IMG/VR virus record: IMGVR_UViG_3300010354_008144
Coordinates: 1 to 21,768 of that record
Strand: one strand, 5' to 3'
Source: a virus
Length of the DNA stretch: 21,768 bases
Position 1 is the first letter of the stretch, and every line of letters starts with the position of its first letter. Position numbers and translations under genes: made by a program. The notes under the pieces were generated by a model. That model was not told the origin of the DNA. It did no database searches and saw nothing but the letters and a program-made list of their open reading frames with translations. Positions 2,221 through 18,444 of this stretch are shown one piece after another.

Positions 2221-3027
2221 TCATGGGATAGCGGTGGCGAAGGCGTTGATGAGATTGGTGACACGGGCGTCAAGTAGGGCGAGGTTTATAGATTCGCCGA
2301 CGGAGTAGAAGGCGAGGCGAGAATCTGAATAACTAGTTCCCGCCCCTTGCCGAAATACATGTGTATCCAAGTTATCTGGTGCAGCAGATGCTTGAGAGAT
2401 GCCTGTAGTTGTTACTGCTAGGAGCCGTTTACTTATCGTGCTACTTGATGATCTGTTAAGGCCGATAAACCCAGAGGGGGCAGCTTCGGTTGTAGAATTC
2501 GATGCTCCAGCATTTATTCGGAGAAATGTTGTTGTAGAGTCTCTTGCTATCCAACTTGCCCCAACACCGAAGCCAGAGCCACTAAATGCACCGATTAGCA
2601 CACCTGAAATCGGCGTCGAAGCGTAAACGGCAAGATGCTTGCTGTTCTGCGGATCCGCATTATTGTTTCGGTTGCTATTCAAATATTTCGTGCTTCCATC
2701 CCCCACTAACCCCGTCTTCCTGTTGTAGTCAGCAGGCAGAAAGTTAAAGGGCGTCGGCGCCACTCCCACCAGTGGCTGCAGCGCGCCATTCAGCGTCCTT
2801 GCCCCGGCCAGGATGCAGCTTGCCTTGATCGCGCTCCAGATGCCGTCAGCTTTGCACCCCAAGACAAAGTTATCAATCGCAATCTTTGTTCTTTCTTCTA
2901 GGCCGCCGGGTGAACCAGCGGCGGTATCAGCAGCTTCGACGGCAGTGATATAAGCCGCTGCGTCCGGGTCCATTGGCTGCCAGGTACGGCGCAGTACCAG
3001 TCTTGTTGGTTCAGTCAGCGGGCTCAT
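2221..3027 (-). CDS. Virion adhesion protein, tandem paralogue B
   Basis: The product has 268 residues and is clearly paralogous to the gene just upstream. Shared blocks are GCKADGIWSAIKASCILAGA (57-76) with ARTLNGAL, then DYNRKTGL (100-107) and LNSNR (116-120), and the C-terminal SRLAFYS...LALLDARVTNLINAF with AIP at the end. The middle (about 136-232) is rich in Gly, Ser and Thr and differs strongly from the paralogue. I associate this architecture with repeated cyanobacterial phage and prophage structural proteins of unknown biochemical role. Position behind a long fibre suggests a fibre tip or accessory adhesin. The ATG overlaps the upstream TGA (ATGA), so translation is coupled. No signal peptide or membrane segment is seen. 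Confidence 0.65.
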   Translation of the reverse strand: MSPLTEPTRLVLRRTWQPMDPDAAAYITAVEAADTAAGSPGGLEERTKIAIDNFVLGCKADGIWSAIKASCILAGARTLNGALQPLVGVAPTPFNFLPADYNRKTGLVGDGSTKYLNSNRNNNADPQNSKHLAVYASTPISGVLIGAFSGSGFGVGASWIARDSTTTFLRINAGASNSTTEAAPSGFIGLNRSSSSTISKRLLAVTTTGISQASAAPDNLDTHVFRQGAGTSYSDSRLAFYSVGESINLALLDARVTNLINAFATAIP

Positions 3028-3776
3028 GGGATGGCGGCTCCGAAGGCGTTGATCAGTGCGGTGACGCGGGTGTCGAGGAGGGCGAGATCAAGGAATGTGC
3101 CGATTGAGTAAAAGGCAAGGCGACCAGTTGATCCCGTGGCCAATCTAAAGTTTCCACTCCCAGTACCACTGCTTGCTAGATTGACCTGAATTGTTGAGCC
3201 AGCAGTTCTATGATTAAAATTGCTTGCGCTATTTCGACTTACACCTAAGAAGTTAAGCCTGCTGCTGTAGCTGCCGGTCAAGGTGTCCGATCCATTTCTG
3301 CAGTAAACATACAAGCTGTCTGGATTATACACAAGGATTTCTGTAGATGTGGTGCCAGTTGTCTGTGTAAATGGTTTAAATGAAACGTTGGTTGGTGCCT
3401 TGTTTGGCATGTAAATGGCAGCATGTATATTATTAAGAGGATCATCCGTAGATGCTCTATTGCTGTTCAAAAAGCCCGTACTAGAGTTTAATCCAGTTTT
3501 TCTGTTGTAATCCCCACTAACAAAATTGTTATTGGTCGGCGCTGCCCCCACCAGCGGAACCAGCGCCCCCGAGAGCGTGCGAGCACCGGCCAAGATGCAA
3601 CTGGCTTTGATGGCGTTCCAGATCCCATCAGCCTTGCAGCCAACTACAAAGTCGTTGATGGCCTTGCCGACAGCAAACTCCAATGGCTGGGCATCGGCGT
3701 TCTCTACGGCAGCGATATAGGCGCCAGCATCTGGATCGGTGACGCCATTAAAGTCGCTTCTGATAATCAGACTCAT
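3024..3776 (-). CDS. Virion adhesion protein, tandem paralogue A
   Basis: The product has 250 residues and is the tandem partner of the next gene. It starts with a short segment on the pattern 'DPDAGAYIAAVENADAQ', followed by the shared block GCKADGIWNAIKASCILAGA, DYNRKTGL and FLNSNR. A divergent beta-rich, Ser/Thr/Asn-rich centre follows. The end is GRLAFYSIG...LALLDTRVTALINAF with AIP. Conserved ends around a variable centre suggest a fixed oligomerisation and attachment frame that presents different surfaces. The gene begins with an ATGA overlap on the upstream small gene and ends with another on paralogue B. A structural role is inferred from context; I cannot name a catalytic motif. Confidence 0.65.
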   Translation of the reverse strand: MSLIIRSDFNGVTDPDAGAYIAAVENADAQPLEFAVGKAINDFVVGCKADGIWNAIKASCILAGARTLSGALVPLVGAAPTNNNFVSGDYNRKTGLNSSTGFLNSNRASTDDPLNNIHAAIYMPNKAPTNVSFKPFTQTTGTTSTEILVYNPDSLYVYCRNGSDTLTGSYSSRLNFLGVSRNSASNFNHRTAGSTIQVNLASSGTGSGNFRLATGSTGRLAFYSIGTFLDLALLDTRVTALINAFGAAIP

Positions 3777-4034: not shown

Positions 4035-7000
4035 TCAGACTCCAATAACGGACCAGGAAGTGCCGTTGTACCAGACGAGTGCAGCGGCAGATCCGCCACC
4101 GACAACAGTGCTGCCGATGGCGGGTGAAGTGGCGTCGGTGACGCGAGTGAGCATCCCGACGACAGGTGCGGCGGGAAGAGCGGCAACAGTGCTGGATGCT
4201 GCCACTTCAGCGACACTGTTGACTTTGACGGTGCCGGTGCCAGCAGCCGTCAGGTTGAGGGGGATATTGTCGGCGCCAGTTCCAGCGGTTTCAGCGGCAA
4301 GCGTGACGGCAGTGCTGGTACTGCTGAGAGCTGCACGGACGTAGTTGCTTGAATCGGTGAAGGTGCCGTAGCAGCGGAAGGTTTGGGCGTTTGTGCCGTT
4401 GCGTTGGGCGAGGGTGTTGGCGGCGTCGCGGTTTAAACGCACGTCTGCAGTGTTGCCGAGAAAAAACTCGCCGGTATCTAAAACTCCAAAAAAAGCGGTG
4501 TTACCAGCGACGTTGCCAAAACCAAATCCAGTGTTATCTGGATTTGCAAAAAATGTCCTGTTTCCACCTGCGATAGCAACTGAATGAATAAATAGTTTTG
4601 CGCTACTAGCAACAGCAAGCCGACCCGTCCCATTCACCTGCAGATCCAGCAGGTTGCCTGTAAATCCACTCGGCGCATTCACGCCAAGCCCGGTCCCAGC
4701 CGTGCTCCAGGCCGTGCTCGTGGTGCCGCTGGGTTCAATCAGAACTGTTGGCTTGGTGGTCGTTGCCGTACCGCCAGTCGTGATCCAAGTGCCGGTGACA
4801 GCAACAGGAACCCCAGCGATGCCTGTTGCGCTCAGTGCGGCATTGGCGCTGTTGATCAGCCTTCCGCCAATCGTGATATTCCCGCTGCTATCAACCGTGC
4901 TATTCACCGCACCGGCATATGCACCAGCATTGTTCCACACCAGATTGCCGCTGCTACCAGCCACCAGACCCACCGTTCCAGTGGCGTCCGGCAGGCTGAT
5001 CGTGCGATTCGCAGTAGGCGTGATTGTCTGAAGGGTGGTAACAAAGCTGCCGCCATCGTCCAGACTGATGTCGCCTCTGTTCGTCAGAACATTGGTGGTC
5101 TTGTTGTAGGTGAGATCGGCGTCACCGCCAAAGGCACCGCCGTCGTTGAATTGGATCTGGGTGTCAGAGCCACCGGGAGCACCACCAGGAGGTGTAGCCC
5201 AGGTGCCATCAGCTCGCAGGAAGTTCGCCGTACCACCTGTGCTGCTGCCAGGCACCAAGCCGGCATTTGTACTGTTCGTTGCAAACAGCGGCAGAGTGAC
5301 ATCGGCGCCGGTTGAGCTGGTCAGCAGCCTGGTGCTTGCGGTGTAGCCCAGGTCTGTGATGTCAGGTGGCAGGCCGGTCAGTGCAGAACCGTCAACCGCC
5401 GGCAACTTGCCAGTGCCATCCAGCTGGACGACGTTCCCGGCTGCCGTGCCGACGTTCTGCGCAGCAGCAGTGCCGAGCGTTGGGCGCCCAGTCAGGTCGT
5501 TGTAGGCCCCGGATGTGGCCACCGTCGCCAGGGAGCCCGGCTGCACAGCGGTATCGGCCTTGGCGCCCTGGGCAGCGGTCGCGGCGCCGACATCGGATGG
5601 ACCCAGGACCACGACGCCGGTCTGGCCGTTGACCGAGCTGACCGCATCAGCCGGGGTGACCAGCTCCACCCAGTTGCCGAGGATCGACGCATCGTCCCCG
5701 GAGAGCACCCAGGCCCTGGAGCGATCGGTTCGGATGCACCAGTCCCCGCGTTGCCCGACGAGGGCCAGCATCGCGGCCTGGTTCGCCACTGCACCCAGGT
5801 AGTCGGTGACCGCAATCGCCGGGATCTGCGAGGTCGGAACCTTGCCGGCGACCAGATCAGCCTTGCCTGCAAGCTCCGTCGCCAGGGTGGCCGGCTGCAC
5901 TGCCGTGTCCGCCTTGGCACCTTGAGCAGCCGTGGCATAGGCCGTGCTGTTGGTGAAGGCCGCCGTGCCGAGCGTGTCGAGCTTCGTCTTGTCTGCAGGG
6001 GCCAGAGCGCCCTGGGCAGCGGTTGTGGCCGCCGGCAGCAACGCCCTCGGGATCAAGGTGCTGCCGTCCAGCTGGACCAGGCCGTTGGGGGCGTTCAGGC
6101 TCAGCTCGATGTTTCTGGCGTAGGTCCAGGTGCCGTTGCCATCGGCCTGGGCGCTACCGGTGACCGAGATCGGTTGACCAGCGGTGGAGGTCACGCCGGT
6201 CACATAGCGGGAACCAGTGAATTCCTTGACAGCGAACTGCGTCGGAACTGTGTTCGCGTCTGGAGCGCCGGTACTGGCAATCAACGAAGTGTTGTTGCTG
6301 ACTTCTTGCAGCTGGACACCAACCGTTGAGAAACCGCCATTACGCGAGAAGGGTCCGATGAAGTTCAGACCACTGAGGTTGAACTGATCGGTGTTGATTG
6401 TAACGGAACCGGTGGTGCCATCAACGGAGAACTGATCACCAACGGCAAAGTTGCCGAGTTCGTCAGTGTTAGAGGAGTAAACCCGTCCGTTGTTGGTTTC
6501 GACAATCTTGTTACCGGGGACGGGAACACCACCGTTGAAAGGAAGTGCGTCGTAGTTCGTACCAGAGCCGACGTACTCGAAGGTGTGGCTAGGTGCCGAA
6601 ATCTGGCTGCGGTTACGGAAGTCAAGAACCTGCCCGGTGGCCAAGGTGTTCAGCAGGCCGCCATTGAGCTGGTTGTAGAAGAAGACGCGATAGCCAGCTT
6701 TGGTTGGATCGTTGTTGGGAACTTCGACGCCGCTTACATTGATCGGCACCGAGCTGGTGACCACATAGGCACTGGTCGGACAGATGAAGGCCAGACCGGT
6801 GACAGTGACCGAACCACTTGCAGCAGGAACCGGAGACGTTGTGGTGAGTGTGACAACGCCCGTAGTTTTGTTGTAGACAGCGTTGACGACACCGAGGTTG
6901 TTGCCGGAGACAACAGCAGTGCCGCCACCGACGTATTCGTGCTCGGGGCCTGAGGGTGAGGTCGCTTCGACGTAGGCGAGAGTGTTGGTTCCGGTGCGGG

Positions 7001-8585
7001 TGTAGGTGAAGGTCTTGGTCTGCGCTTCACCTGTGGTTGCGTTGCGTGGGAAGACCAGCTGCGGGAACATCAGCTGGCCAGCATTCGGGCGGCTTGCTGA
7101 GTTGCAGATGAAGGAGAGCCCTTCAAGAACGACCTGCTGACCGACCGTGGGCGTGTAGCCCGTTGCGGTGACGGTGGTTACGCCTGTGGTGTTGTTGTAG
7201 GTACAAGCGGTAACCGGGTAGTTGGACGTACCAGCGGTAAGCGTGCCACCACCGACATAGGTATGCTGAATACCAGCAACCGTATCAAGCGTGATCGTGA
7301 AGCTATTGCCAGAGACGGCAGAGATCGTTACAGGATTGCCAGGGGAGCCATCACTTCCCGCACTCGGGTACTTGATCTGGCGGCTCAGACGATTGGCGTT
7401 GAAGCTGATGACATCAACTGAGGTGACGCCTTGACGGACGACCTGATAGGTGCCGGTCGTCGCCCCGCTGATGTCAACGGACGATCCGCCCTGGGTAGTC
7501 GAAACCTTGAAGGTGTTGGCGCCAAGGCCTGATGCAATGACGAAGAAGGTGCTGGTTGTATTCAGCGGCGTTGGAAGTGTGCCGCTGCTGACCTTGAAGG
7601 TGACCTGATCTCCAGCTACAAGGCCATGGCTCGTCGCCGTGAAGGTATCGGTGCTGGCGTCGATCGTGATCGCCTTCTCGATGCGCGGCGCACCAAAGGC
7701 CTGGGCGCGGGCCTGGCCGGTGAACACCGGGGTCGGCGAATAGCCATCGGCCATCAGGCCGTAGGTGCCAAAGTCCGAGGTGCCGCCACCAGAAAGGTTG
7801 ACCTGGCCACCGGTTTCGGTGCGGACGTGGTACTGACAGAAGGTGCCGAAGAAAGACACCAGCTGGGCGTAGCCGTCGTTCTTGACCAGACAGCCGGGAC
7901 CACCGAGGTTGACCTGGGTGTAGCTGTCAACCACCATCGAACGGATGGGGCTGTTGATCGCGCAGCGACTGCCATCAACGATGATGCCGCCGCCGGTATC
8001 ACCAACTGACTGAGAACCAGCCAGGCCTGCATCGTCCTCGGCGGTGATGGACGAGCAGTTCTGGATGTACGGGCTCTGGAGGATGTAAGCCCCGAGGCCG
8101 ACAGCGCCAATGCTGCGGTTGTCTGCCAGGGCGTCAAAGGCGATGGCCCAGGACTGCTGGTTGTTGGCCTGGTTGGATTGGTGGCCAGCGAACAGGAGGC
8201 CCCAGCACCAGAAACCAGAGTCAACGTGGAAGATGTCGTTGAACTCCTGGCCGGCAGCAGGGCGGACGATCGTGTTGCGCAGACCGCGAGCCAGGATGCC
8301 GACGTTGCGGGGCCAGCGGATCGGCAGGGAGGTTTCGCTGTAGGTGCCGGGACCAACTTCGATCAGATCACCGGGTTGGGCGGCAGCAGCGGCAGCAGCA
8401 AAGGTGCGGAGAGGTTCAGATAGCGAAGTTCCGTTGTTTGAATTGTCACCGTCAGGTGAAAGATAGATGCGTCGTGTATCACGGAAGGCTTCAAGCGCTT
8501 CCTCCAGCTTGTCAAGATTGCCATCGTGCTCCTCAGCAGTCAGAGGAACACCTTTTACCAGGCGGCGGACAAGATCAAGCGTCAT
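4035..8585 (-). CDS. Large mosaic tail fibre / tailspike protein
   Basis: The product has 1516 residues. Residues 1-40 are a helical attachment segment of the tail-fibre type (PLTAEEHDGNLDKLEEAL). Residues 40-285 look like a right-handed beta-helix opening with YLSPDGDNSNNGTSLSEPLR and rich in G-N-S-T turns (DUF1565/pectate-lyase-like). Residues 300-605 hold related beta modules containing YVGGGT at 443-448 and 551-556. Residues 661-790 match a block I remember from T4-like cyanophage fibres (APSHTFEYVGSGT, NTDELGNF, NTDQFNLSGLN). Residues 850-1075 are collagen-free fibre repeats, with ATAAQGAKADTAVQP twice. The C-terminus ends in ALVWYNGTSWSVIGV. Its ATG overlaps the upstream stop (ATGA). 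It is almost certainly the main host-recognition fibre; depolymerase activity of the beta-helix is possible but no catalytic residues are evident. Confidence 0.85.
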   Translation of the reverse strand: MTLDLVRRLVKGVPLTAEEHDGNLDKLEEALEAFRDTRRIYLSPDGDNSNNGTSLSEPLRTFAAAAAAAQPGDLIEVGPGTYSETSLPIRWPRNVGILARGLRNTIVRPAAGQEFNDIFHVDSGFWCWGLLFAGHQSNQANNQQSWAIAFDALADNRSIGAVGLGAYILQSPYIQNCSSITAEDDAGLAGSQSVGDTGGGIIVDGSRCAINSPIRSMVVDSYTQVNLGGPGCLVKNDGYAQLVSFFGTFCQYHVRTETGGQVNLSGGGTSDFGTYGLMADGYSPTPVFTGQARAQAFGAPRIEKAITIDASTDTFTATSHGLVAGDQVTFKVSSGTLPTPLNTTSTFFVIASGLGANTFKVSTTQGGSSVDISGATTGTYQVVRQGVTSVDVISFNANRLSRQIKYPSAGSDGSPGNPVTISAVSGNSFTITLDTVAGIQHTYVGGGTLTAGTSNYPVTACTYNNTTGVTTVTATGYTPTVGQQVVLEGLSFICNSASRPNAGQLMFPQLVFPRNATTGEAQTKTFTYTRTGTNTLAYVEATSPSGPEHEYVGGGTAVVSGNNLGVVNAVYNKTTGVVTLTTTSPVPAASGSVTVTGLAFICPTSAYVVTSSVPINVSGVEVPNNDPTKAGYRVFFYNQLNGGLLNTLATGQVLDFRNRSQISAPSHTFEYVGSGTNYDALPFNGGVPVPGNKIVETNNGRVYSSNTDELGNFAVGDQFSVDGTTGSVTINTDQFNLSGLNFIGPFSRNGGFSTVGVQLQEVSNNTSLIASTGAPDANTVPTQFAVKEFTGSRYVTGVTSTAGQPISVTGSAQADGNGTWTYARNIELSLNAPNGLVQLDGSTLIPRALLPAATTAAQGALAPADKTKLDTLGTAAFTNSTAYATAAQGAKADTAVQPATLATELAGKADLVAGKVPTSQIPAIAVTDYLGAVANQAAMLALVGQRGDWCIRTDRSRAWVLSGDDASILGNWVELVTPADAVSSVNGQTGVVVLGPSDVGAATAAQGAKADTAVQPGSLATVATSGAYNDLTGRPTLGTAAAQNVGTAAGNVVQLDGTGKLPAVDGSALTGLPPDITDLGYTASTRLLTSSTGADVTLPLFATNSTNAGLVPGSSTGGTANFLRADGTWATPPGGAPGGSDTQIQFNDGGAFGGDADLTYNKTTNVLTNRGDISLDDGGSFVTTLQTITPTANRTISLPDATGTVGLVAGSSGNLVWNNAGAYAGAVNSTVDSSGNITIGGRLINSANAALSATGIAGVPVAVTGTWITTGGTATTTKPTVLIEPSGTTSTAWSTAGTGLGVNAPSGFTGNLLDLQVNGTGRLAVASSAKLFIHSVAIAGGNRTFFANPDNTGFGFGNVAGNTAFFGVLDTGEFFLGNTADVRLNRDAANTLAQRNGTNAQTFRCYGTFTDSSNYVRAALSSTSTAVTLAAETAGTGADNIPLNLTAAGTGTVKVNSVAEVAASSTVAALPAAPVVGMLTRVTDATSPAIGSTVVGGGSAAALVWYNGTSWSVIGV
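5538..5936 (-). repeat. Repeated fibre-shaft motif inside the fibre gene
   Basis: The 15-residue motif ATAAQGAKADTAVQP occurs twice in the fibre, encoded at 5892-5936 and 5538-5582. A looser copy (TTAAQGALAPADKTKLDTLG) lies just before the first. Between the two exact copies is a compact non-repeat segment containing QRGDWCIRTDRSRAWVLSGD. The two DNA copies differ at many third codon positions, so this is an old protein-level repeat of the shaft and not a recent DNA duplication. Confidence 0.7.
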
Positions 8586-11759: not shown

Positions 11760-12458
11760 TCACAAAAATAAAAGGTGATCCGGCACTCCACGCCTAATTC
11801 TTTTGTAAATGGTGGCAGCGCTTACGCCGGATCTTTTTGCAGCTTCTCGCAAGCATATCCTCTCTCCTTCAAGAATAACAGTTACTGCGTTGCTACGCAT
11901 TTCTGGAGCCAAATCGACGCGGCCATTGACAAACAGAAGTGAATCTGGGACACCTCTCTTCATTCTTTTTCTTACCGTATCACGACTTATCCCGGAGAGA
12001 AGGCAGGCATCTGCAAGGCACATCTTTTCTCCATTGTAGATAACATGGACGTTATTTCTTTTGTTTTTGCATTGCTGAGCCACTGACGCCCATCTTACAT
12101 TTCCGGGTTCATAGTGTCCATTGGGATCAATTCTGTCAAGCGTCATTCCATCGGGCCTTGGGCCAAGTTCTTCAAGAAATTGCTCATAAGATTTGAATCT
12201 AAACTCAACGTGTCCGTAAGCGCCATTGTGATTCGCTTCAACCCTTCTTTTTGCTCTTCTGTAGGATTTGTAAGCTCCTTGATTAACTTTAATTTCCTCG
12301 GGCAGCTTTTTCCAAGTCACTGGTCGCATCTTTAATGCACACGACTTGCACATTAGCGGTCTACCATCTTTTTCCGCTTTAGCTATCAGATCCTTCCTTG
12401 TTTTTCTTTCTTTTTTACAGTTAGGGCAAGTTGCAAGAACGTATGGATTTGACGCCAT
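11760..12458 (-). CDS. Free-standing HNH homing endonuclease
   Basis: The product has 232 residues. Residues 11-40 form a zinc ribbon (C11, C14, C37, C40). The nuclease core at 99-130 has the phage HNH pattern GPRPDGMTLDRIDPNGHYEP followed by GNVRWASVAQQCKNK, with conserved D108, R109, N113, N120, R122 and W123. Two tandem DNA-recognition repeats follow at 139-176 and 194-231, each of the form 'V-G-E/K-x-x-C-L-x-(D/E)-A-...-SG(I/V)S...(R/K)(R/K)GVPD..LLF', resembling NUMOD/helix-turn-helix modules. Such enzymes cut a specific site in DNA lacking their gene and spread by repair. It lies between small cyanophage-type genes and the plus-strand gene, which is typical of an inserted selfish gene. 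ATG start with GGTGA nearby. Confidence 0.85.
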   Translation of the reverse strand: MASNPYVLATCPNCKKERKTRKDLIAKAEKDGRPLMCKSCALKMRPVTWKKLPEEIKVNQGAYKSYRRAKRRVEANHNGAYGHVEFRFKSYEQFLEELGPRPDGMTLDRIDPNGHYEPGNVRWASVAQQCKNKRNNVHVIYNGEKMCLADACLLSGISRDTVRKRMKRGVPDSLLFVNGRVDLAPEMRSNAVTVILEGERICLREAAKRSGVSAATIYKRIRRGVPDHLLFL

Positions 12459-16563: not shown

Positions 16564-18444
16564 TCATCTCCAACGACCACCGTGACCAGTTCTCATGCCA
16601 GCCCGCTGGAATACCTGCCAAATCAGATAGCGAAGCGCGTCACCAGCGTGAGAGTAGTCTGTCGCGCCACCTTTACTTGGCTTAAGCGTCTTGCTGTCAT
16701 AGGACCACCGCTCAGCCGAGCTTATCGTGTTGTGGCACGTGGTTGGGTTAAGTAATACCAGTCCACGGTGCATGTGAACATTGGCGTGAGCAAGCGTTTC
16801 GGAGATTGGCGGGTTGCGTCGCTCTGCAATAACTTGAACGCCAGCTGCCCTCAGGATCTCGTGATCACTTTGGGTTGACGAGGTGGAATCATGAGAGCCG
16901 CTGGCATCTGGATAGCAGGTGATCAGGCCAGACGACAGGTGATGAGAATACTTCTCGCGCAGGTGTACAACAAGTGCGAAGGTATCGGCAACCTTGGATT
17001 CAGCGAAGCAGTGAAGCTGTTGGCCGGCTGGCCCAGCCTTGATGACACCGTAAACAGCATGACACTGGCCAACGTTAAAGTCAGCGCCGAACACAATACG
17101 CTCATTGCGCTCTGGAACAAAAATGCCGGTCGTGTGCCTGTTCCTGTCGAATTCGTAAAAGACGGTTGCCGATTCAAGGTTGACAAACTCGCCATTCAAG
17201 TATGCCTTGATCAGCTGCGGGTGATACTTCGTCTTCAGGTCTTCAACGAAACCAGGATCAAGGAACGGATTATCTTCTGACTTGCCGCGATACAGCCTCT
17301 TGTTGTCCGATTTTTGCTCCTCAAAGAAGGTGTACATCCAGCCGTAGCCCTCTGGCGTAGATGCAGCAACAATCTGAGGACAATTGCCAACACGAACACG
17401 ACCCTGCAGCTTGATCATTGCCTTTTCGGCAACCTCAGGCCTTGTCGTATCTGTTTCGTCCGTTGCAATGCTTGCGGCGTTCACACCAATCAGGCGTTCG
17501 TAGTTCTCCATGGAGCGGAGAAGAACGGGAGTTTCGCCGCCAGGAAGCAAAAGCTTGAAGCTTGGCCTAGGCGATGCCTTGAAGGTATGCGGAATTGAGT
17601 ATTTCTCCAGAACTTCATTCCACTTTGGCAGTGCCACGTCGTCAATCAGCGGGATCGTAGGCTCAAGGAATAGGTGGGTGAAGCCCTGGGAACGGAAGCA
17701 AAGAAGCAGTTGCTTCATGACAAGACTGTAAGTCTTGCCAGAGTTATGATTTAAGATGCCATGCGCTTCGTAATGATTCCACAATGGGACGTGAAGATCA
17801 TAGAAATCGTCGGTCTTGGCGTATTCAATATCTGCAATCCTGGACCATCCGTAAGCCTTGCTTTCACTGAAGAGACCAAAATCACCACCTTCCTTAAAGC
17901 GATCAGCATCAGCGCCGATAAATGCAGCCCATGGACTTCGCACGTTCAAGCTGTCTTCCAGTCCGTTTTTACAAACGGCAATTGGAACGCCGATGTCAAT
18001 CTCGCCAAGCTTTCTCCAGCCAACTGGTGTTAAAAATTTATGCTCCCTGGTGACAGTGATGCTGTAACCAGAGGCTGTAGTTGTCCTGAAAAGCGATGCG
18101 ACTCCTTTTTTGTAGGCCGGAGATGCCTTCGTAAAGCCGGCAAGCGTTTTGACGTAAATCGGTGACTGCGTTAAGTCTTTAACCGGTACTCCATTGATGA
18201 GCGTTTCGCCGGCAATGCAGCCATATCCACCGCAAAATCCAACGTACTTATGCTCAAAGTCTTGAACAAAAGCTCGCTGATATGGGAGCAGGTCTTCAAG
18301 GATCTTGATCTCAGCTGTTGTTACATCAAAGCTGGAGTTGGCCCGCTTTCTGAGCTTCGTTAGGATCTCGGCGTTGTGCAGTAGGCCGAGAGATCGAGCC
18401 GCCGCACGATCGGCATAGGCATTTGCCTTGGACCTGGCGGGCAT
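16564..18444 (-). CDS. terL: Terminase large subunit, interrupted by an intein
   Basis: The precursor has 626 residues; removing residues 76-234 leaves a 467-residue TerL. The ATPase half shows Walker A GGYG (72-75) continued by SGKT (235-238) after the intein, Walker B ASIATDE with D329/E330, and the coupling motif VAASTPEG (359-366). The nuclease half has the three acidic positions expected for the RNase H-like fold: D455 in VFGADFNVG, D513 in CYPDASG and D602 in YSHAGDALRY. TerL pumps DNA through the portal and cuts the concatemer. Spliced-out sequence would restore an intact GGYGSGKT P-loop. The ATG at 18444 has a weak Shine-Dalgarno (GGA) and a possible promoter nearby. No small subunit gene was recognised upstream. 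Confidence 0.92.
   Translation of the reverse strand: MPARSKANAYADRAAARSLGLLHNAEILTKLRKRANSSFDVTTAEIKILEDLLPYQRAFVQDFEHKYVGFCGGYGCIAGETLINGVPVKDLTQSPIYVKTLAGFTKASPAYKKGVASLFRTTTASGYSITVTREHKFLTPVGWRKLGEIDIGVPIAVCKNGLEDSLNVRSPWAAFIGADADRFKEGGDFGLFSESKAYGWSRIADIEYAKTDDFYDLHVPLWNHYEAHGILNHNSGKTYSLVMKQLLLCFRSQGFTHLFLEPTIPLIDDVALPKWNEVLEKYSIPHTFKASPRPSFKLLLPGGETPVLLRSMENYERLIGVNAASIATDETDTTRPEVAEKAMIKLQGRVRVGNCPQIVAASTPEGYGWMYTFFEEQKSDNKRLYRGKSEDNPFLDPGFVEDLKTKYHPQLIKAYLNGEFVNLESATVFYEFDRNRHTTGIFVPERNERIVFGADFNVGQCHAVYGVIKAGPAGQQLHCFAESKVADTFALVVHLREKYSHHLSSGLITCYPDASGSHDSTSSTQSDHEILRAAGVQVIAERRNPPISETLAHANVHMHRGLVLLNPTTCHNTISSAERWSYDSKTLKPSKGGATDYSHAGDALRYLIWQVFQRAGMRTGHGGRWR
17743..18219 (-). 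other. Mini-intein in the TerL P-loop
   Basis: The intein is 159 residues inside TerL. It opens with C76 (block A, CIAGETLINGV) and has a block B histidine in VTREHKFLTP (T132, H135). Block F follows with FYDLHVPLWNHYEAHGIL, and it ends in block G HN (H233, N234) before the +1 serine S235. All four splicing residues (C1, His, penultimate His, terminal Asn) plus the +1 nucleophile are present, so splicing is expected. Only a short linker separates blocks B and F, with no LAGLIDADG or HNH domain, so it is a mini-intein lacking its own homing enzyme. Insertion between Gly and Ser of GGYG/SGKT makes packaging depend on splicing. Confidence 0.92.

Follow-up and report, generated by a model that had tools for sequence, protein, structure and literature searches.

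The terminase locus and its insert

The stretch of DNA analysed here (hereafter the window) is a 21,768-base IMG/VR virus record, and the material throughout, relatives included, consists of metagenomic contigs. At 16564-18444 of the window, terL encodes a 626-residue large terminase precursor (Terminase_6N; phrog_2, terminase large subunit), residues 76-234 of which form an insert that splits FCGGYG/SGKTYSLV, that is, the Walker A loop. As delimited by relatives whose site is empty, the N-extein (residues 1-75; 18220-18444) ends in the Walker A half GGYG (18220-18231), and the C-extein (16564-17742) starts with SGKT (17731-17742, with the +1 Ser codon at 17740-17742) and contains DETDT (17446-17460). 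Between them, at 17743-18219, lie the 159 residues of the insert, from C1 to N159: these include block B, TREH, at insert residues 57-60 (18040-18051); a fast-evolving linker at residues 84-121 (17857-17970), which corresponds to the slot of an antisense HNH gene in full-size relatives; and a C-terminal splicing region with blocks F and G, ending in HN (17743-17856). All of these features are encoded on the minus strand.

Several lines of evidence identify the insert as an intein. Taken alone, it scores 36.2 bits against Pfam PF14890 (Intein_splicing; cutoff 35.8) and 27.2 against NCBIfam intein_Nterm (cutoff 24.5), and among PDB sequences it is closest to DnaB mini-inteins (4o1r, 6.5e-9). An AlphaFold model has the HINT fold (pLDDT 78, pTM 0.76), and the top Foldseek matches of this model are inteins (Ssp DnaB mini-intein 6frg, E 7e-9, TM 0.62). 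The DnaB mini-inteins (Ssp 1mi8/6frg, Npu 4o1r) thus share with it the HINT fold and the class 1 splicing residues; they differ in host protein and insertion site, and are 22-24% identical to it over the fold alignment. The characters of class 1 inteins are all present: the C1 nucleophile, block B TREH, penultimate His and C-terminal Asn, the +1 Ser, the HINT fold in the predicted model, and exact interruption of a conserved host protein, which in empty-site relatives reads GGYGSGKT without a break, including in L022, whose extein is 96% identical in amino acids. A comparison of 17 distinct inteins from this site showed no variation in C1, TxxH (T57/H60), HN or the +1 Ser. A search of both strands of the window's intein found no endonuclease domain, as befits a mini-intein. 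An RNA intron as the source of the insert was considered and rejected, as there is no Rfam match in the window, L012 or L017 and the sense frame is open.

The insert is therefore confirmed as a class 1 mini-intein at GGYG/SGKT in the TerL Walker A loop, with the boundaries, the splicing residues and the spliced length of 467 residues (626-159) that a preliminary description of this DNA had given. That description also held that splicing is needed to form the ATP-binding loop, and the anatomy, the empty-site relatives and purifying selection (see below) likewise suggest that the Walker A loop would be rebuilt only by splicing.

Two other regions of the window, both on the minus strand, were recorded in passing. 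Adjacent genes at 2221-3027 and 3024-3776 are both full-length matches to phrog_17104, a family of unknown function (6.7e-79 and 9.6e-76), and represent a tandem duplication; the gene at 4035-8585 encodes a 1516-residue tail or fibre-like protein whose matches form a patchwork of several tail families.

Three states of one insertion site

Relatives were collected from IMG/VR contigs by scans using the intein and the C-extein as queries. At the insertion site 16 are empty, nine carry a mini-intein and 14 carry a larger intein (309-360 residues where complete). The 14 full-size contigs represent 12 distinct sequences, of which 11 are complete; the remaining one, L021, was considered as a split or half intein and is instead a full-type intein cut by the end of its contig. 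The window's own terminase family holds all three states, with mini-inteins of 149, 155 or 159 residues and full-size inteins of 359; the other full-size members (309-360 residues) reside in terminases 34-37% identical to the window's.

The codon at the +1 position varies with the state of the site. Within the window's TerL family, intein-bearing alleles all use TCN for this serine, and in close empty sisters the codon is AGY or TGC (compare L003 with L022 and L016 with L038, among other empty alleles); in the distant TerL family the codon is AGC in most intein-bearing alleles. The empty alleles L028 and L029 read GGYGCGKT, with Cys in place of the +1 Ser, and their sisters L007, L011 and L012 carry the intein; this may possibly be an escape or a scar at the insertion codon.

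Purifying selection and patchy occurrence

The closest comparison is with L002, whose exteins are 90% identical in DNA to those of the window. All 26 nucleotide differences between the two in the splicing blocks are at third codon positions, none at first or second ones, and the whole intein has only five amino-acid changes, which map to residues 108-121, inside the linker or on its border. Because the splicing blocks differ at third positions only, splicing appears to be conserved, and the comparison argues strongly that it is under strong purifying selection in the window's intein.

The preliminary description had raised the question whether splicing responds to redox (through C1) or to temperature and so times DNA packaging. 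In favour of a conditional switch are the dependence of Walker A rebuilding on splicing and the conditional splicing known for other inteins (for example PMC6195587). The cysteine of the extein (FCGGYG), on the other hand, occurs in all members of the window's TerL family that lack the intein and were read across the site; since these relatives have it too, it is not co-adapted to the intein, and a redox switch acting through it was rejected. Moreover, close relatives lack the intein altogether, so that packaging in this phage group is timed independently of it. We find no support for such a switch and give it hardly any credence. Presence of the intein is patchy even among terL genes 83-96% identical in DNA, a distribution that resembles that of a mobile element more than that of a conserved device for regulation.

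A nuclease gene on the opposite strand of full-size inteins

Where an endonuclease domain would usually sit, the full-size inteins have the reverse complement of a gene with helix-turn-helix (HTH) and HNH elements, which is encoded on the opposite strand. This gene is present in every full-size member, and is complete and in the same register in all 11 complete sequences. Its product, of about 230-296 residues, starts with ATG and contains an HNH motif (GWVIHHMNENPRDQRHSNLWLF) and, in the longer members, an N-terminal HTH; the 3' end of the gene overlaps intein block B. Pfam HNH_3 matches the antisense ORF at 28-31 bits (cutoff 24.8) in the four members tested, and the best PHROG is phrog_7545, HNH endonuclease. 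In the sense frame, by contrast, the insert has no likeness to known domains, sense hits being Intein_splicing or none. The antisense ORF has the setting of a homing endonuclease gene, as it lies within a splicing element whose insertion site is conserved and also occurs as empty alleles. Hence the earlier statement that the intein has no homing endonuclease domain holds for both strands of the window's copy and fails for the family, whose full-size members carry one antisense.

No free-standing homologue of the nuclease was found in IMG/VR, where all matches (14 contigs) lie inside the intein; a GTDB genome scan gave none, and searches of phages gave none or a weak match at 29% coverage. As to its expression, the antisense strand of L012 shows no sigma-70 promoter above chance, and the ribosome-binding sites of the antisense gene are weak. 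A TATACT or TATAGT motif lies upstream of the antisense ATG in L011, L012, L013, L016, L017, L019 and L021 and is absent in L018 and L020; it is antisense to intein residues Y-T/S-W, and could be a -10 box or a mere by-product of the sense codons.

Constraint on both strands

When all six frames are read across the insert, just two are free of stops, that of the intein and that of the antisense gene. Averaged over all pairs, the antisense proteins are 58% identical and the sense translations 32%; for L011 and L012 the values are 94.6% and 57.5%, and the changes number 12 at first, 6 at second and 86 at third positions of the antisense codons. The antisense protein is therefore constrained, being more conserved than the sense translation and changing mostly at its own third positions.

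The sense frame is constrained in a different way. It contains no stop in any of the 11 complete sequences, against 2.3-12.1 expected when the antisense protein is recoded synonymously, with individual probabilities of a stop-free frame from 0.07 to below 0.001; for L067, shuffling within the gene leaves the frame stop-free in 7% of cases. As a control, ordinary genes of these phages were sampled in 104 windows of 223 codons; the same opposite frame had a mean of 10.8 stops, and none of the 104 was stop-free. Set against both expectations, the absence of stops in 11 of 11 implies that the sense frame, too, is kept open. Its amino acids are close to those predicted from the antisense protein plus avoidance of stops (one of six pairs lies above the simulated range), and the insert is predicted to be disordered and flanked by two folded splicing halves. 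In the simplest reading of these sequences, the insert would be a translated, throw-away loop of the intein.

Taken together, these data make it very probable that this is a mobile intein family with its homing endonuclease antisense, in which selection acts on both strands over some 170-220 codons and of which the window carries an endonuclease-less relative; as part of the same reading and with equal assurance, the antisense strand would be selected for a working HNH nuclease and the sense strand mainly for a stop-free, splice-compatible sequence. It could be argued instead that the window holds an ordinary TerL mini-intein and that the antisense ORF of its relatives is incidental or a dead relict, as TerL Walker A mini-inteins are already known (PMC5050341) and the antisense gene is absent from the window itself. 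Such an ORF would hardly retain Pfam HNH and HTH matches over cutoff in the members tested, stay conserved as a protein with its changes at third positions, and remain intact in 11 of 11 complete members, and we regard this explanation as improbable.

Horizontal movement and recombination

Consistent with a mobile intein with its nuclease antisense, the histories of intein and host gene disagree. The exteins of L016 and L013 are 36% identical, their splicing domains 82%, an incongruence that indicates horizontal movement of the intein, and empty, mini and full states are intermixed in the extein tree. An insertion can be seen by comparing L041 (filled; the same contig as L016) with the empty L038: the two differ by a precise insertion of 1077 nt with flanks 95.4-95.6% identical in DNA. 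Their terL genes have 56 mismatches, four of them no more than seven bases from the junction, where 0.28 would be expected (P 2e-4); among the four is a serine codon that changes from AGT to TCT. This clustering is as expected from co-conversion.

Recombination also occurs within the element. L006 (5001-5477) and L016 (5001-6077) are 97% identical in DNA for the first 44 intein codons and 61% identical from codon 45 to codon 84; to judge by these identities, L006 is a mosaic mini-intein with a recombination breakpoint inside the intein.

Origin of the window's mini-intein

Loss of the nuclease can be followed in two relatives. A single 90-codon frame in the mini-intein of L009 still contains the beginning and the end of the antisense gene, with homology confirmed by profile searches, and on this evidence this mini-intein is an in-frame deletion derivative; L007 retains the open 3' end of the gene. 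In the linkers of the window, L002, L003 and L006, an nhmmer search found no significant remnant of the antisense gene, detecting one in L009 only.

Two histories of the window's lineage can be considered. Since its linker lacks a remnant and the lineage is set apart from the other inteins with full support in an unrooted tree, the lineage (window, L002, L003 and L006) may never have had the antisense gene, which would then have joined another branch later. Against this, midpoint rooting places the lineage beside L016, loss demonstrably occurs (L009 and L007), and the linker shares with the full-size members a sense motif, SPW..F, which is there antisense to the HNH motif (a weak indication). 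A primarily endonuclease-less lineage is thus possible and rather unlikely; that the window's intein arose by deletion of an antisense gene is the history we think probable.

The window also encodes a free-standing HNH protein (11763-12458, minus strand; phrog_3377, 2.8e-34), about 5 kb away among structural genes, which might be thought to mobilise the mini-intein in trans, especially as the L006 record, also with a mini-intein, has a copy 62% identical to it. The gene is, however, absent from the 86-kb record bearing the L005 mini-intein, a partial relative 40% identical occurs in the L036 record, where the site is empty, and the protein is unlike the antisense nuclease in alignment. With its occurrence uncorrelated with that of the mini-intein, homing in trans by this gene was rejected as very improbable.

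A proposed homing cycle with the endonuclease antisense

We hypothesize that the window carries a splicing-competent, endonuclease-less class 1 mini-intein from a mobile family whose homing endonuclease is encoded on the opposite strand, a reading to which, from the sequences compared, we assign a probability of about 0.84. In the full-size members, the HTH and HNH gene in the endonuclease slot, antisense to and overlapping terL, would encode the nuclease, and the sense strand of the slot would give a loop of about 200 residues, probably unstructured, that is removed along with the intein. If expressed, the antisense protein would be expected to cut terL genes that lack the intein, close to the codons for Walker A; repair of the cut would copy the intein and its hidden gene into the empty allele, after which protein splicing would restore TerL. 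Once all local alleles were filled, the endonuclease would become useless, and in-frame deletion could yield mini-inteins such as that of the window.

The loss of endonucleases to give mini-inteins is part of the accepted homing cycle model (PMC8966425), with which the deletion in L009 and the finding of empty, mini and full alleles at a single site agree; the difference is that the endonuclease lost here was antisense. Phage large terminases with an intein in the ATPase domain, and in its Walker A loop, are likewise familiar from mycobacteriophages: Kelley et al. 2016 (PMC5050341) describe TerL1-a to -e, TerL6-f and Pham3880-g, with two sites in the Walker A loop and two inteins with demonstrated active endonuclease. 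TerL1-a lies between Lys and Thr and TerL1-b one residue away, and G/SGKT is neither of these; as to whether the site is already listed, a point raised in the preliminary description, it is absent from the seven sites of that study. In the mycobacteriophage inteins studied, the endonuclease activity comes from the expressed intein, whereas in the relatives described here the endonuclease is on the opposite strand. A parallel is the group I intron S956-2 of Didymium iridis, which, in the account given by PMC13182076 (citing Johansen et al. 2006), also has a homing endonuclease gene antisense within a splicing element. Its host, on that account, is an RNA intron in rDNA that need not be translated; here, because the intein is a protein, both strands must be stop-free over about 170-220 codons. 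No report of an antisense endonuclease inside an intein was found in the open-access full-text literature. The window's copy alone thus adds to the known TerL inteins, and the family with the antisense endonuclease is a novel variant among mobile inteins.

Mobile inteins are described as single polypeptides with splicing and endonuclease domains. In the present family, splicing and nuclease would be separate proteins from opposite strands of one DNA, so that the nuclease need not come from the terL message and its expression would be uncoupled from that of terL. The family offers a clean natural example of antisense overlapping coding in which constraint can be measured for each strand, and it suggests that a HINT domain can accommodate, at the endonuclease slot, an insertion of some 200 residues with almost no restriction on its sequence. 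A standard annotation would label the sense insert meaningless and overlook the nuclease; other inteins with 'degenerate' inserts therefore merit a second look. With empty, mini and full alleles at the same site, the homing cycle becomes directly testable in these phages.
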